Shown one piece after another: positions 7,653 to 51,557 of a stretch of DNA of 51,557 nucleotides. Each line of letters begins with the position of its first letter. Within the stretch, counting starts at the first letter, position 1. Below the pieces are notes generated by a model. That model saw nothing but the letters and a program-made list of their open reading frames with translations. It searched no databases and was not told the origin of the DNA. Source of the stretch: Pirellulales bacterium (GTDB lineage: Bacteria; Planctomycetota; Planctomycetia; Pirellulales; Lacipirellulaceae). Made by a program: the position numbers and the translations under genes. Location: the NCBI GenBank assembly GCA_028279215.1, contig JANQOF010000010.1, forward strand, positions 1 to 51,557, given 5' to 3'.

Positions 7653-8176
7653 GACGGAGTGGGCCCTGTTGCTATTGGGCGATCGTCTGGCTGACCTCGA
7701 TTCGCAATTCGCAATTCGCAAATCGCGTTGGAGTGAACCCGCCGTAATTCGTCGAAGGCGCCGCGCGGTGCCACGCCGGTAAGCGTTTCCTCATGCCGCA
7801 CGCCGTTCACCGTGTAGGAGTGGTGCCCCGACAGCACGTAGTCGCCGTTGGGTTGCACCTCGACGATGGTTGCATTGATTGCAGGGAACATTGTCGGTGC
7901 TTGGGGAATTGGATTCCGCGAATCGTCGCCGCCCCCTTTTTCTATTTCCCTTGGAATCAAGACGATGACGATATCGTCAAGTTTTAGGTCTCCATCGACG
8001 TTACCGTCCAGTTGCGATTCTAGCGTCGATATGCGGTCGACGAGCAGAGCGGCGATCGTCTTTAGCTCTGCTATTTCCTTTCGGAGAGTCGCGCGATCAA
8101 CCTCTTCGGCAGCACGGCTAACGCCGCAGCACACTAGCGAAAACAAGATGAGTCCTGTAATGCGCGAGCGGGCCAT
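7475..8176 (-). CDS. FlgH-like exported protein, 3' end frame-shifted by a repeat
   Basis: A signal peptide (MARSRITGLILFSLVCCGVSRA) is followed by a short heptad-like helix and a domain resembling the core of the flagellar L-ring protein FlgH: LDDIVIVLI, then IVEVQPNGDYVLSGHHS and a VNG...TLTGVA segment. A GGAGG site supports the ATG at 8176. After HSNAICELRI the frame runs on as 60-odd residues of low plausibility, antisense to the carrier domain of the acyl-AMP ligase, to a stop at 7475. Removing one unit of the (TTCGCAA)x3 repeat at 7701-7721 restores RIEVSQTIAQ and a stop at 7672, which clears the neighbour by 20 bp. I think 7672-8176 is the ancestral gene of about 165 residues. No other flagellar gene is nearby. 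Confidence 0.6.
   Translation of the reverse strand: MARSRITGLILFSLVCCGVSRAAEEVDRATLRKEIAELKTIAALLVDRISTLESQLDGNVDGDLKLDDIVIVLIPREIEKGGGDDSRNPIPQAPTMFPAINATIVEVQPNGDYVLSGHHSYTVNGVRHEETLTGVAPRGAFDELRRVHSNAICELRIANRGQPDDRPIATGPTPSYSLSNSRWASSSLIPSISDSIASKSSSDALGSSDWEAGSSSAAIDCSARYLERAAGVG
7701..7721. repeat. Heptanucleotide tandem repeat (TTCGCAA)x3
   Basis: These are three exact head-to-tail copies of TTCGCAA, 21 bp, near the 3' end of the FlgH-like gene. Seven is not a multiple of three, so each gain or loss of a unit shifts the frame. With two units the gene would end cleanly before the convergent acyl-AMP ligase stop. Confidence 0.95.
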
Positions 8177-18969: not shown

Positions 18970-19527
18970 ATGAAGATGATCGTAGGGCTCGGCAATCCTG
19001 GTAACAAGTACGAAGATACGAGACACAACATAGGATTTGAGGTGCTTGGCGAACTGTCGCGGCGTTGGCAGGCCGATAGTCCGCGTGATAAACACCAAGC
19101 ACTCGTCTCCTCGGCGAGCTATCAGCAAGAGAAGGTGTTGCTAGTGGCTCCGCAAACCTACATGAATCTGTCCGGTGTGTCGGTTCGCTTGGCGACTGAT
19201 TTTTTCAAGCTGCAAACCTCCGACCTGCTGGTAACATGCGACGACTTCAACCTGCCGCTGGGCATGCTTCGTACGCGGGCGCAGGGCTCGGCGGGTGGAC
19301 AAAACGGCCTGGACAACATCATTCAGCAATTGGGCACCCAAGAGTTTGCCCGGCTGCGGATTGGGATTGGCCCAGTGCCCGAGCATTACAATGCGGCCGA
19401 CTTCGTGTTGAGCAAGTTTGCTAAGAGCGAACGGGACGATGTCGACCAAACGGTGCGGCGAGCCGCCGATGCGGTAGAATGCTGGATCGCGAAAGGGACG
19501 ACTGAAACGATGAATCAATTCAATTAG
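18970..19527 (+). CDS. pth: Peptidyl-tRNA hydrolase
   Basis: This enzyme releases tRNA from peptidyl-tRNAs that fall off the ribosome. The 185-residue protein has the whole family pattern: MIVGLGNPGNKYEDTRHNIGFE at the start, with the catalytic His in RHNIG, PQTYMNLSG, VTCDDFNLPLG (catalytic Asp) and GSAGGQNGL. Two in-frame ATGs (18970 and 18976) are possible; I keep the first. It follows rplY by 45 bp. Its final codons run into a 7-bp-periodic repeat region that fills the gap to rpsF. Confidence 0.97.
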   Translation: MKMIVGLGNPGNKYEDTRHNIGFEVLGELSRRWQADSPRDKHQALVSSASYQQEKVLLVAPQTYMNLSGVSVRLATDFFKLQTSDLLVTCDDFNLPLGMLRTRAQGSAGGQNGLDNIIQQLGTQEFARLRIGIGPVPEHYNAADFVLSKFAKSERDDVDQTVRRAADAVECWIAKGTTETMNQFN

Positions 19528-19587
19528 TGGCTAATAGGCAGTGGCGAGTGCATGCATTCGAGTTTTCCACTAGCTACCAGCCACAGA
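19525..19587. repeat. Two heptad-periodic blocks between pth and rpsF
   Basis: 19525-19552 reads as four imperfect 7-mers, TAGTGGC TAATAGG | CAGTGGC GAGTGCA. 19567-19587 reads as three, CCACTAG CTACCAG CCACAGA. The second block is partly the reverse complement of the first (GTGG against CCAC), so the transcript could form an imperfect stem. The stop codon of pth sits inside the first block. Confidence 0.6.
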
Positions 19588-36381: not shown

Positions 36382-37422
36382 CTACTCCGCATTCCGCACG
36401 CCGCACGCCGCACTCGCCCGAATCCACTCGCCCAGCCGCTCCATGCCCTCCTGCTTCGAAACACGCGGCTGGTAGCCAAGGTCTCGCTTGGCAGCGGAAA
36501 CATCGAACCAGTGGTCGGTGGCCAACTGCTGGGCGACAAATCGCATCATGCGCGGCTCGGCGTCCCATCGGCGGGCGGCCCAGTACGATGCCTCGAGCCC
36601 AGCTCCAATCCAATAGGCGGCCGAGCGGGAGATCGACCTGTCGACCGGCGGCAGATCGGCTAGCGCCAGGATTTCGTCGATCCACTGCCAGCAGTTCACG
36701 GGCTCGCCCTGGCTCAAAAAGTACGCCTGGCCGGCTACCGGCGAGTCGGGCACTGCCAGCGCGTCCGCCGCCAACAAATGGGCCTCGGCCGCATTCTCGA
36801 CATAAACCATGTCGACAAGGTTTGTCCCGTCGCCAACGCGGCGGAGTTTGCCCCTCTTGGCACGCTCGATGAGCCGGGCAGTCAAATGATGGTCGCGCGG
36901 CCCCCACACCAGGTGCGGGCGCAATGCACAGGTGCGAAGCTTCGCCCCCCCGGCTACTGGCTCTCCGTTGGCCGTCAGAACCATTTGCTCGGCAATCGCC
37001 TTGGAGTGCGGATAGTGCGACAGCCAATGATCGGGATAAGGCGCCGACTCGTCGACGCCCTTTTGGTCGCGCCCAGCAAACGTCACGCTCGGGCTGCTAG
37101 TAAACACCAACCGCTCGACGCCGTGCTGCTTGCAGGCGGAGAGGACGTTCATGGTGCCATGAATGTTCGCCCGGAAGTACTGAAACCACTTCCCCCACAC
37201 GCCCACCTTTCCACCGACGTGCATCACACAGTCGACCCCATCGCACGCGACCGAAACCTCGTCCAAATGCCCCAAGTCGCCACGCACCATCTCGACGCCC
37301 ATCGCTGCCAGCTCCGGGTAGTCACCGCGCGCAAACCCCCGCACCGTATCGCCCCGAGCGAGGAGTTGTTCGACAATGTACCGGCCCAGAAAACCGCCAG
37401 GGCCGGTGACGAGGACGCGCAT
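36382..37422 (-). CDS. oleD: 2-alkyl-3-oxoalkanoate reductase, OleD type
   Basis: OleD reduces the 2-alkyl-3-ketoacid made by OleA, and OleC then forms the beta-lactone that OleB turns into a long olefin. The 346-residue short-chain dehydrogenase has VLVTGPGGFLGRYIVEQL (NAD(P) loop), FARGDYPELAAMGVEMVRGD, TSSPSVTFAGRDQKGVDES and the YPHSK catalytic Tyr/Lys; these closely match OleD as I know it. It lies 88 bp after oleC. The last ten residues (SAACGVRNAE) are encoded by a heptanucleotide repeat at 36387-36414 and look like added tail rather than enzyme. Confidence 0.87.
   Translation of the reverse strand: MRVLVTGPGGFLGRYIVEQLLARGDTVRGFARGDYPELAAMGVEMVRGDLGHLDEVSVACDGVDCVMHVGGKVGVWGKWFQYFRANIHGTMNVLSACKQHGVERLVFTSSPSVTFAGRDQKGVDESAPYPDHWLSHYPHSKAIAEQMVLTANGEPVAGGAKLRTCALRPHLVWGPRDHHLTARLIERAKRGKLRRVGDGTNLVDMVYVENAAEAHLLAADALAVPDSPVAGQAYFLSQGEPVNCWQWIDEILALADLPPVDRSISRSAAYWIGAGLEASYWAARRWDAEPRMMRFVAQQLATDHWFDVSAAKRDLGYQPRVSKQEGMERLGEWIRASAACGVRNAE
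36387..36414. repeat. Heptanucleotide tandem repeat at the oleD 3' end
   Basis: Four consecutive 7-mers, CCGCATT, CCGCACG, CCGCACG, CCGCACT, cover the last codons of oleD just before its stop. The period is the same as at 7701-7721 but the unit differs. Confidence 0.85.
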
Positions 37423-41837: not shown

Positions 41838-42749
41838 TCAGCCCGCCTGCGCACGCAACCAATCGAGCACAATCGCCGATACATCTACCCGACAAGCGCG
41901 CGATAACGCGCGCCAGCCCGGCACGGCGTTGACCTCGATAGCGTACTGTCGTCCGTCGCGCGCAGGCAGCAGGTCGACACCGGCCAGCGGGGCGCCAACA
42001 GCCTTTGCGGCGCGGCGCGCCATGTCGACTTCGGTCGTCGACGCTTCATGCGGCTCGGTTTTCGCACCGCGGCTGACGTTCGTCCGCCAATCGAGTCGGT
42101 TACGGCGCCGCATGGCAAGCACGCGCTCGCCGATCAGCAGCACTCGGATGTCGTATCCTTCGTGCTCGATGAATTCTTGCAGGTAGATCACGCCGCCAAG
42201 CTGCTCGATCAGCTTGAATGCCCGCAGCGCCAAGGCTTCGTCGGCTAAGCGAGTGATACCGCGGCCCTCACCACCAAAGATGGGCTTGAGTACTACGTCG
42301 CCGCCCAAGCTGGTGAAGGCATGCATCGCAGCGTCGGCCGCCTGACAGGTGAAGGTCCTCGGAACCAACAGCCCAGCACGCGCGAGCCGACTGGTAGTCA
42401 GGTACTTGTCGACCGCTGCCTCGATTGCTTTCGGCGGATTGACGACCAACGTGCCGGCCGCTTCAAGACTCGCCAGCGCATCCATGCGAAATACGACTTG
42501 CTCGAGTGATCCGGGCGGCATCGTGCGGACGAGCACGCAGTGGGCGGTGGACAGTGGGCGGTGGGCCGTTGCAGGCGGAGTGGAGCGCCCTCCACGCGAG
42601 ATGGCGCTATCGACCAAGACGTGATCACCGTTGATCGACGACTCAATCGTACTGAACGGAGCCGGTGTGATGACAACGCGGTCGCCCCCTGCGCGACGCA
42701 AGTCGCCGAGGTACCAGCTTTCGGCAGATCCAAAAAATGTGATATTCAA
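41838..42749 (-). CDS. RimK-like ATP-grasp ligase near H4MPT genes
   Basis: This 303-residue ATP-grasp protein resembles RimK and the glutamate ligases of tetrahydromethanopterin-type cofactors. It has VVLKPIFGGEGRGITRL (ATP-binding loop), YLQEFIEHEGYDIRVLLIG and VDLLPARDGRQYAIEVNAVPGWRAL (metal-binding Glu/Asn). It lies 34 bp after mch on the same strand, a pairing I know from C1 gene clusters, so it may add the glutamyl side chain of dephospho-H4MPT. Residues about 52-69 (GRSTPPATAHRPLSTAHC) are encoded partly by a heptanucleotide repeat and look like inserted sequence before the conserved VLVRTMPPGSLEQV. Confidence 0.82.
   Translation of the reverse strand: MNITFFGSAESWYLGDLRRAGGDRVVITPAPFSTIESSINGDHVLVDSAISRGGRSTPPATAHRPLSTAHCVLVRTMPPGSLEQVVFRMDALASLEAAGTLVVNPPKAIEAAVDKYLTTSRLARAGLLVPRTFTCQAADAAMHAFTSLGGDVVLKPIFGGEGRGITRLADEALALRAFKLIEQLGGVIYLQEFIEHEGYDIRVLLIGERVLAMRRRNRLDWRTNVSRGAKTEPHEASTTEVDMARRAAKAVGAPLAGVDLLPARDGRQYAIEVNAVPGWRALSRACRVDVSAIVLDWLRAQAG
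42538..42565. repeat. Heptad-periodic repeat inside the ATP-grasp gene
   Basis: Four 7-mers follow each other: CAGTGGG, CGGTGGA, CAGTGGG, CGGTGGG, so a 14-mer is present twice with one base change. They encode part of the odd stretch near residue 65 of the ATP-grasp protein. Confidence 0.85.
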
Positions 42750-42783: not shown

Positions 42784-43740
42784 CTATGATCCGTGCGATT
42801 GCTCTAGTACATCGGGGGCGAACTCACCGAATCGCCGGACGACGCCCGTATCGAGATTCACGAGTTCGACAATCGCGGGGCTGAATAGATGCTTGTCGAT
42901 CCTGTAGAAGTCGCACTCGTACGATTTGAATATCTCGGCGAACGGGCGCCCGTGGTCATCGGAACTGTTCGATGGAACTTGCGGAGCAACCTCATCGATG
43001 CTCGTTTGCTCACCTCGCACCCACAACACGACGTGTCCGCCGTACAAAATTGCGTCGTTGGTACGCCCAATGCCGCCTAGCGCGTCGCCGGCCACCGGCG
43101 GCAGCGGCGCTACGCCCCAGCCACTTTCGATACGATGCAAATCGAAGCCCAACTCGTGCAACTTGTGCAGCGCCGTCTCCACGCTCCGCGCAACGACCTG
43201 CACATTGCCCGCCTGGCTGTCCGTGGGGGCGACAAGCAACGTCACATTGTGTGGTGAGACATTGCAGTTCATGGCGATCTCGTTGCAAACCTGCTCAGTC
43301 GGCATCTCACCTGTTTCCAGCAAACCGACGACGACTTCCGACTCTTCGCGGGAGCCGATGTCGTCGAACAGTTCTTCGCGTCCGTAGGCCGCTCGCATCG
43401 GGCCAGACCCCATCGCAAAGAACTGTCCGTACGCAACTTCCCAGCCAGCATACTGCGACGCCATGCACGCACGCACCGGAGCGTCGGTGCGGACCGTGAT
43501 TGCCGGTCGCCCAGTAATGGCGTGTACGTCGAACGTTACGTCGGCAAGACCCGACAACGCGATTTCAGCCATCCTCCGGCCCGCCTCCAAGCCACCGGCG
43601 GCGGTGATGCCAAAGTCGATCACGCGGGTCGATCCAACCCTTGAGACTTCCACGCGCAGATCGCTTGCGGCGTCAACCAACGCCTCACACAGAGCAAATG
43701 CGCGGCGATTCAGGCCATAGGTGCTAGGCAGGTTGTCCAT
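42784..43740 (-). CDS. mch: Methenyltetrahydromethanopterin cyclohydrolase
   Basis: Mch interconverts 5,10-methenyl-H4MPT and 5-formyl-H4MPT in the one-carbon pathway known from methanogens, methylotrophs and planctomycetes. The 318-residue protein has the family pattern: GLEAGRRMAEIALSGLADV, the ASQYAGWEV and FAMGSGPMRA motifs, DAILYGGHVVLWV and late DFYRIDKHLFSPAIV. It is followed by the ATP-grasp ligase, 34 bp apart. No other H4MPT gene (mtd, ftr, fhc, fae) is in the window, so the pathway is scattered. The route probably serves formaldehyde oxidation or detoxification. Confidence 0.95.
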   Translation of the reverse strand: MDNLPSTYGLNRRAFALCEALVDAASDLRVEVSRVGSTRVIDFGITAAGGLEAGRRMAEIALSGLADVTFDVHAITGRPAITVRTDAPVRACMASQYAGWEVAYGQFFAMGSGPMRAAYGREELFDDIGSREESEVVVGLLETGEMPTEQVCNEIAMNCNVSPHNVTLLVAPTDSQAGNVQVVARSVETALHKLHELGFDLHRIESGWGVAPLPPVAGDALGGIGRTNDAILYGGHVVLWVRGEQTSIDEVAPQVPSNSSDDHGRPFAEIFKSYECDFYRIDKHLFSPAIVELVNLDTGVVRRFGEFAPDVLEQSHGS

Positions 43741-51246: not shown

Positions 51247-51557
51247 TCAACTACCGCAGTCGCAGCCTGCGGAAGTTCCGCAGTCGTCGCACCCAGGTTC
51301 GCAGCGTTTCACCTCTACAGGTACTTGCTGGCAAACCGTTCGAGGTACGCACCGCTTGACGGTGTACGGCACCTTGCGGCACACGGTCTTGTAGCAGGTG
51401 ACGGTCTTCTGGCAGCACTGCGGAACGCAGACGTTGTAGCAAACGGTCTTCGTGCGGCACTCGGGAACCATCTTGCAAACCTTGTAAGTGCAGGTCTTGC
51501 ACTCAGGAACCATCTTGCAGACCTTGTAGCAAACGGTCTTCGTGCGGCACTCAGGAA
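51247..51557 (-). CDS. Cysteine-rich repetitive YTV-type envelope protein, 5' end cut off
   Basis: The visible part is about 102 residues, running to the window edge with no start codon required before it. The repeat is built from motifs of the form VPECRTKTVCYKVCK and KVPYTVKRCVPRTVCQQVPVEVKRC, with a Cys every 4-8 residues (about 21 in view) and the YTV signature known from Rhodopirellula cell-wall proteins. The tail is GCDDCGTSAGCDCGS. A 90-bp direct repeat (positions 51434 and 51524 start matching blocks) shows internal duplication. The full protein is probably much longer and disulfide-rich, contributing to the protein-based wall or outer surface. A terminator follows. Confidence 0.8.
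   Translation of the reverse strand, partial: PECRTKTVCYKVCKMVPECKTCTYKVCKMVPECRTKTVCYNVCVPQCCQKTVTCYKTVCRKVPYTVKRCVPRTVCQQVPVEVKRCEPGCDDCGTSAGCDCGS

Follow-up and report, generated by a model that had tools for sequence, protein, structure and literature searches.

Origin of a heptad array within an ATP-grasp gene

How did four tandem heptads come to lie, in frame, inside the gene for an ATP-grasp enzyme, and do they belong to a wider class of heptad repeats? The question arises from a 51,557-nucleotide stretch of Pirellulales DNA (the window), which is contig C59 of genome G000, a 4.56-Mb assembly of 83 contigs that is 95% complete. The initial annotation had placed a four-heptad array inside this gene at 42538-42565, and both the sequence and TRF confirm it. 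The 28 nt at this position read CAGTGGG, CGGTGGA, CAGTGGG, and CGGTGGG on the plus strand, that is, four CRGTGGR units which together make up two 14-bp repeats and which are C-rich on the minus strand, the strand of the gene. TRF describes 42538-42564 as a 14-bp unit repeated 1.9 times with 100% matches, and 42540-42566 as a 7-bp unit repeated 3.9 times with 80% matches, so the array consists of four imperfect units rather than a long pure tract. Through its 14-bp period it is longer than chance allows for tandem units: the window contains one lag-14 run with at least 13 matches, compared with a mean of 0.0 in 40 dinucleotide shuffles. GG or GGG recurs throughout the plus strand of the array, which has three GGG tracts. 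In the ORF translation the array supplies codons 62-71 (AHRPLSTAHC), in frame and directly ahead of VLVRTMPPGSLEQV; it is thus coding, unlike the mainly intergenic heptads of Xanthomonas and Nostoc, and as it lies 184-211 nt inside the gene, the strand rule for gene ends described below does not apply to it.

The host gene (41838-42749, minus strand) is intact and encodes 303 aa from a TTG start that is backed by orthologue alignment. The product matches Pfam RimK with an E value of 9.5e-25, and scores 176.4 bits against the NCBIfam RimK family TIGR00768, above the cut-off of 143.4; the best raw match is MptN (NF040720), where 205.9 bits fall below the cut-off of 350 and are too few to identify the protein as MptN. 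The next gene upstream is mch, encoding methenyltetrahydromethanopterin cyclohydrolase (42784-43740, minus strand). At an E value of 1e-15 the ATP-grasp protein has matches in 37 of the 43 family genomes, the weaker of which cover the ATP-grasp domain only.

Alignments and a structural model place the array in a length-variable linker at about residues 44-70 (42540-42620, minus strand). The most length-variable stretch of the protein lies just ahead of a conserved (V/I)R(T/S)MPPGSLEQ segment (alignments of the window and 29 loci; 20 rows); measured from the SWY motif, linker length ranges from 48 to 87 residues with a mode of 51, and is 64 in the window (69 rows from 80 loci, lengths being taken by regex, with at least 11 of the 80 loci giving no row and repeats shown for the 14 longest only). 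An AlphaFold2 model built from the window protein and 19 relatives has a mean pLDDT of 89.2, with means of 53 over residues 51-60 and 84 over array residues 61-70; it predicts a short strand at residues 62-65, within the array residues, and a core strand from residue 71.

Absence from congeners and recurrence in the same linker

Alignment by eye finds no heptads at the array position in three congeners (G003, G004, and G005), two of which are represented by records L145 and L146 and were also covered by the linker scan of 72 orthologues described below. G005 and G003 match the window protein over its residues 1-300 and 2-301, respectively, with 293 codons each, so that the window gene exceeds them by 7 aa (21 bp). 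In G004, the third congener, 302 residues are matched by 305 codons, 3 more than in the window; since this linker is slightly longer and has no heptads, heptads are not needed for a change in length. On the gene strand, CTGTCCACCGCCCACTGC aligns with CTGTCCGCTGCCGATTGC of G005 at 14 of 18 positions by eye, which indicates that the last units of the array derive from native sequence. The expectation that such arrays would not be conserved between close relatives is borne out by the window array as judged by eye, and by the other arrays as judged by exact scan.

Heptad arrays do occur in the same linker of two further planctomycetes: L158 (a Planctomycetia MAG) has CCTCCAG repeated 4.4 times, encoding SSSLQPSASSLSS, and L216 (a Planctomycetaceae MAG) has AATCCAA repeated 4.7 times, encoding QPIQNPKSKIQNPVS. 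Both are unrelated in sequence to the window array, and neither holds GGG or CCC. They are the only two of 72 orthologues with a usable linker to reach a lag-7 score of at least 10; at the same threshold, i) none of the 72 linkers qualifies at periods 4-6 or 8-13; ii) two qualify at period 14, presumably L158 and L216 again; and iii) none of 72 control pieces of equal length qualifies at any period from 4 to 14, these controls being conserved sequence just past the linker, in which insertions would in any case be lost. For the window array the score is 8 at lag 7 but 13 at lag 14, so that it passes the threshold through its 14-bp period only. With unrelated arrays in one linker of two more planctomycetes, the earlier proposal that heptad arrays alter proteins in this phylum holds.

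Heptad arrays in the window and in genome samples

Further arrays had been listed at 7701, 19525, and 36387, of which the first and last are clear by TRF. ATTCGCA, repeated 3.9 times at 7700-7726, lies 48 bp past a gene that best matches acyl-AMP ligases, and three exact units of this array occur in 1 of the 43 family genomes, the window's own. The array at 36386-36413 has about four units (TRF: 36394-36413, 2.9 copies) and encodes the C-terminal end of an oxidoreductase/epimerase-like protein (gene 36382-37422, minus strand; best raw matches below cut-off); an exact scan of this protein end finds heptads in the window copy only. By eye, degenerate heptads can be seen at the corresponding protein end in G005 (L267), and C-rich heptads precede the gene next to the orthologue in both G003 and G005 (L266, L267). 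The sequence at 19525-19549, located at a called stop codon, is doubtful: it was found neither by TRF (score 30) nor by exact scan, and is by eye at most a strongly degenerate run. The window thus holds three clear heptad loci and one doubtful one. No inverted partner above the control maximum was found for the arrays at 7700 and 36386 (the array at 42538 was not among the rows of this comparison). Mean lag-7 identity over the window is flat (0.2528, compared with 0.2518 at lag 5 and 0.2534 at lag 8), and a global lag-7 autocorrelation was accordingly rejected; the signal resides in a few discrete arrays. The window also contains, at 51457-51540, a 42-bp direct repeat in two copies with 83% matches.

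Genome samples were scanned with TRF at a score of at least 40, taking the best period and three shuffles per sample; these comprised 681 kb of G000, 400 kb each of G001, G003, G008, and G034, and 490 kb from 80 orthologue loci, with the window not included. Period-7 arrays numbered 7, 0, 4, 8, 6, and 8 in that order, compared with 0, 0, 0, 0, 0.7, and 0 in the shuffles, for a total of 33 versus about 0.7. The excess of 7-bp arrays anticipated by the initial annotation is therefore seen in samples of the window's own genome and of its relatives, the G001 sample having 0. Period 7 shows the largest ratio among periods that are not multiples of three, but it is not alone: over the same six samples, period 8 gave 19 arrays versus about 1 in shuffles, period 14 gave 43 versus about 15.7, and period 16 gave 20 versus about 7.7, while periods 10 (6 versus 5.4) and 13 (16 versus 14.7) stayed near their shuffles. 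Multiples of three lie far above shuffles, as expected in coding DNA (period 12, for example, with 90 versus about 12).

The heptad units in these samples vary from one array to another. Four consensus patterns were drawn up from 17 units and then tried on 54 others, the units not being independent: RRYTGNN fits 13 of these 54 units from other samples, compared with 4.4 expected after letter shuffling (0 of 2000 shuffles as high), and the other three patterns give P values of 0.01 to 0.03; given this dependence between units, we treat a common consensus as an aside. A pure CAGTGGG array of about 15 units is present at G001:C1:5881837-5881940, in a genome matching Adhaeretor mobilis.

Position, polarity, and pairing

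In six sets (the window, G000, G001, G003, G008, and G034), 25 of 47 heptad arrays are intergenic in DNA of which 81-84% is called coding, so the class is enriched between genes without being confined there. When the threshold was relaxed and the 80 loci were included, 83 arrays were obtained, of which 53 are located close to a gene end; 2 of these have no G/C skew. Ahead of starts, the G-rich strand is the antisense strand in 22 cases and the sense strand in 3; past stops, it is the sense strand in 20 cases and the antisense strand in 6 (Fisher P 3.5e-6), the genes having been called by a simple dicodon caller with approximate starts, and the start of the window ATP-grasp gene having been set by hand for these counts. 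Near gene ends, in other words, the G-rich strand points out of the gene. Taking one array per neighborhood leaves 20:3 at starts and 14:6 at stops (P 1.8e-4). Arrays without GGG or CCC keep the rule (9:2 at starts and 11:4 at stops, P 0.015); the corresponding counts for arrays with GGG or CCC tracts are 11:1 and 3:2 (P 0.053). Arrays with a period that is a multiple of three lean the same way, not significantly (25:17 and 24:16, P 0.12), and no strand rule was found in other arrays or in random 30-mers (P 0.47 and 0.20, respectively).

Some heptads are also found as inverted pairs. GGCAGTNGGCAGT is followed by its inverse within 15-45 bases at nine distinct places in 4 of the 43 family genomes; GGCAGT inverted pairs across the phylum are found in 2 of 392 genomes, at one place each, which makes the GGCAGT unit largely a feature of the window's family. 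The opposite order of the GGCAGT arms occurs in none of the 43 family genomes and in none of the 392 phylum genomes. Among intergenic regions of 60-260 bp, those containing a heptad array have a median folding z of -2.89 (n=27), compared with -0.44 for 150 random controls, and z falls below -4 in 11 of the 27 versus 14 of the 150 (P 1.4e-4); in another 10 of the 27, z is about -1 or higher, so that pairing is not universal. Long, nearly continuous stems are present in the chosen examples L078, L227, and L263. An inverted partner scoring at least 10 was found for 4 of 18 arrays (L044, L078, L086, and L091), a weak test in which the maximum for random flanks was equal for three of them, these flanks probably sometimes having included the true partner. 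Among 64 sampled hairpins outside the window, the arms have a 7-bp period in 4 and a 9-bp period in 3.

Explanations for the array

We think that the window array is probably a duplication by replication slippage that has been tolerated in a variable linker; we infer both the slippage and its neutrality in the protein, and prefer this reading as the most parsimonious one. The linker would already have carried, in its native sequence, an imperfect pair of heptads; replication slippage would have duplicated that 14-bp stretch; and the duplication may have been kept because linkers of many different lengths are tolerated here, and because the 21 bp of three heptads insert seven residues with no change of frame. 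By its period the window array belongs to a wider class of heptad arrays, of which it would be a coding and unpaired form; intergenic members of this class often fold into a hairpin, with inverted arms beside stop and start codons in the best cases. Counting against our reading are the small number of imperfect units, the lag-7 score under the threshold, the longer heptad-free linker of G004, the siting of the control pieces in conserved sequence, the excess at period 8, and the fair model confidence over the array residues with their short strand.

With a unit length that three does not divide, and with a coding array placed in the first quarter of the gene, gain or loss of a single 7-bp unit could shift the frame and switch the ATP-grasp enzyme off and on, as at a contingency locus; yet the array has only four imperfect units with 80% matches at period 7, it is absent from the three congeners, and the neighboring mch does not suggest a surface function, all of which makes a phase switch of this kind highly unlikely. 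That a dispersed CAGTGGG-type repeat entered the gene by transfer or gene conversion, instead of arising by local duplication, strikes us as unlikely: CAGTGGGCAGTGGGCAGTGG does occur in 10 of the 43 family genomes, and its backward control has 0 matches, but the window's own genome has no CAGTGGGCAGTGGGCAGTGG-type array, and CAGTGGRCRGTGGRC matches at the window locus alone, as two overlapping matches in the 95%-complete assembly. An origin from a dispersed copy was rejected on the absence of a second copy from that assembly.

The GG or GGG tracts that run all along the plus strand of the array, and the frequent folding of intergenic heptad regions (11 of 27 with z below -4, versus 14 of 150 controls), would also fit a nucleic-acid element within the gene, either a G-quadruplex or an RNA hairpin, comparable to the G-rich heptads of Xanthomonas and Nostoc (PMC4692102). 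We regard such an element as decidedly unlikely. A canonical three-tier quadruplex requires four G-tracts of at least three, and with three such tracts present the G-quadruplex reading of the window array was rejected, although a two-tier structure may remain; the linker arrays of L158 and L216 have no GGG or CCC at all; no unusual fold was found for the window array in two runs (z +0.64 and +1.0), nor z below -4 for any of 18 coding arrays. A hairpin reading of the window arrays was likewise rejected, the three regions having z values of +0.64, +0.82, and +1.09. Slippage in a tolerant linker thus remains our preferred account of the window array.

For heptad arrays in general, we offer a more tentative and frankly doubtful reading: that they may constitute a cross-phylum class of DNA with fixed polarity, in which the G-rich strand points out of the gene at either intergenic edge, inverted pairs begin with the G-rich arm (as at all 11 of the GGCAGT-type sites), and the best stems extend from stop codon to start codon; and that a hairpin-forming or hairpin-templated process might be the common cause, also creating peptide repeats of seven residues where the linkers of conserved enzymes tolerate them. 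Since the strand rule holds in arrays without G-tracts, quadruplex formation would not be the common cause under this tentative reading; the polarity at gene ends weakens quadruplex formation as a general explanation, and can be checked in any genome collection. Heptad repeats have so far been described mainly from intergenic DNA, and their recurrence in one linker of three planctomycetes suggests that new in-frame protein sequence can come from the same process; the linker offers a natural setting in which to test the mode and rate at which heptad repeats arise.

Relation to known heptad repeats

The STRR repeats of cyanobacteria are heptameric tandem repeats, and to this extent the planctomycete arrays resemble them.

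According to the summary of Mrazek (2007) given in PMC4679880, heptamers are the most abundant class of 5-11 nt repeats in most genomes examined, and long simple sequence repeats are likeliest to be coding when the unit length is a multiple of three (3n). The heptanucleotide repeats of that summary share with ours the 7-bp unit, the excess over expectation, the phylogenetic scatter, and the proposal of slippage; unlike them, the window array is in a conserved coding region. The TAACTGA repeats of Beggiatoaceae (PMC4679880) are again direct heptad repeats, many of them near start codons, but have one fixed unit where the planctomycetes have many. The Xanthomonas and Nostoc heptads GGGNATC and GGGGAYT are described in PMC4692102 as forming inverted pairs and following a strand rule at gene ends, with four units as the preferred number. 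The window array has four units as well, and our family samples exhibit the same gene-end rule together with inverted pairs; unlike the heptads of that account, the planctomycete units are diverse, and they obey the strand rule even without GGG or CCC.

The initial annotation had considered a protein-altering counterpart in planctomycetes to be undescribed. We found no account of planctomycete heptads in the open-access literature, where Rhodopirellula baltica is tabulated with 29 satellites (PMC6749651), and where a wider search on heptameric repeats of intergenic DNA gave no paper with planctomycetes in its title; the kind of repeat is already described in PMC4679880 and PMC4692102. We wish to stress that the unusual part is the recurrence of heptads of unrelated sequence in one coding linker of three planctomycetes, and not the heptad phenomenon as such.

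According to PMC4476775, the P6b stem of the Nostoc trnL intron is built of heptads TDNGATT or NNTGAGT and has 14-nt insertions. The window's own genome has similar hairpins, made with TATGATT/GATGATT heptads (L078 and L091), the likeness being one of the heptad-built stem. Arms of this kind are located at L078 690-790, L091 14545-14612, and L117 15960-16042. The intergenic region at L244 1805-2005, which separates a called stop from a called start, combines a heptad stem with a long, perfect inverted repeat and has an RNA folding energy of -147.3 kcal/mol (z -14.8). The 400-kb sample of G003 contains six copies of an element that measures about 97-101 bp and whose arms, TGGGAATCTATTTT and its inverse, are separated by 69 bases (L123 10633-10729, L126 13689-13789, L127 10046-10144, L130 15974-16072, L132 2071-2169, and L134 2317-2413); beside five of the copies, at a distance of up to about 35 bp, there is a heptad array. 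A comparable repeat, its TGGGGCAAAACT sites lying in either orientation, is present in the window's own genome (L038 12973-13103, L043 15802-15906, L053 12346-12477, and L086 13990-14015), and degenerate heptads can be seen by eye beside some of these.
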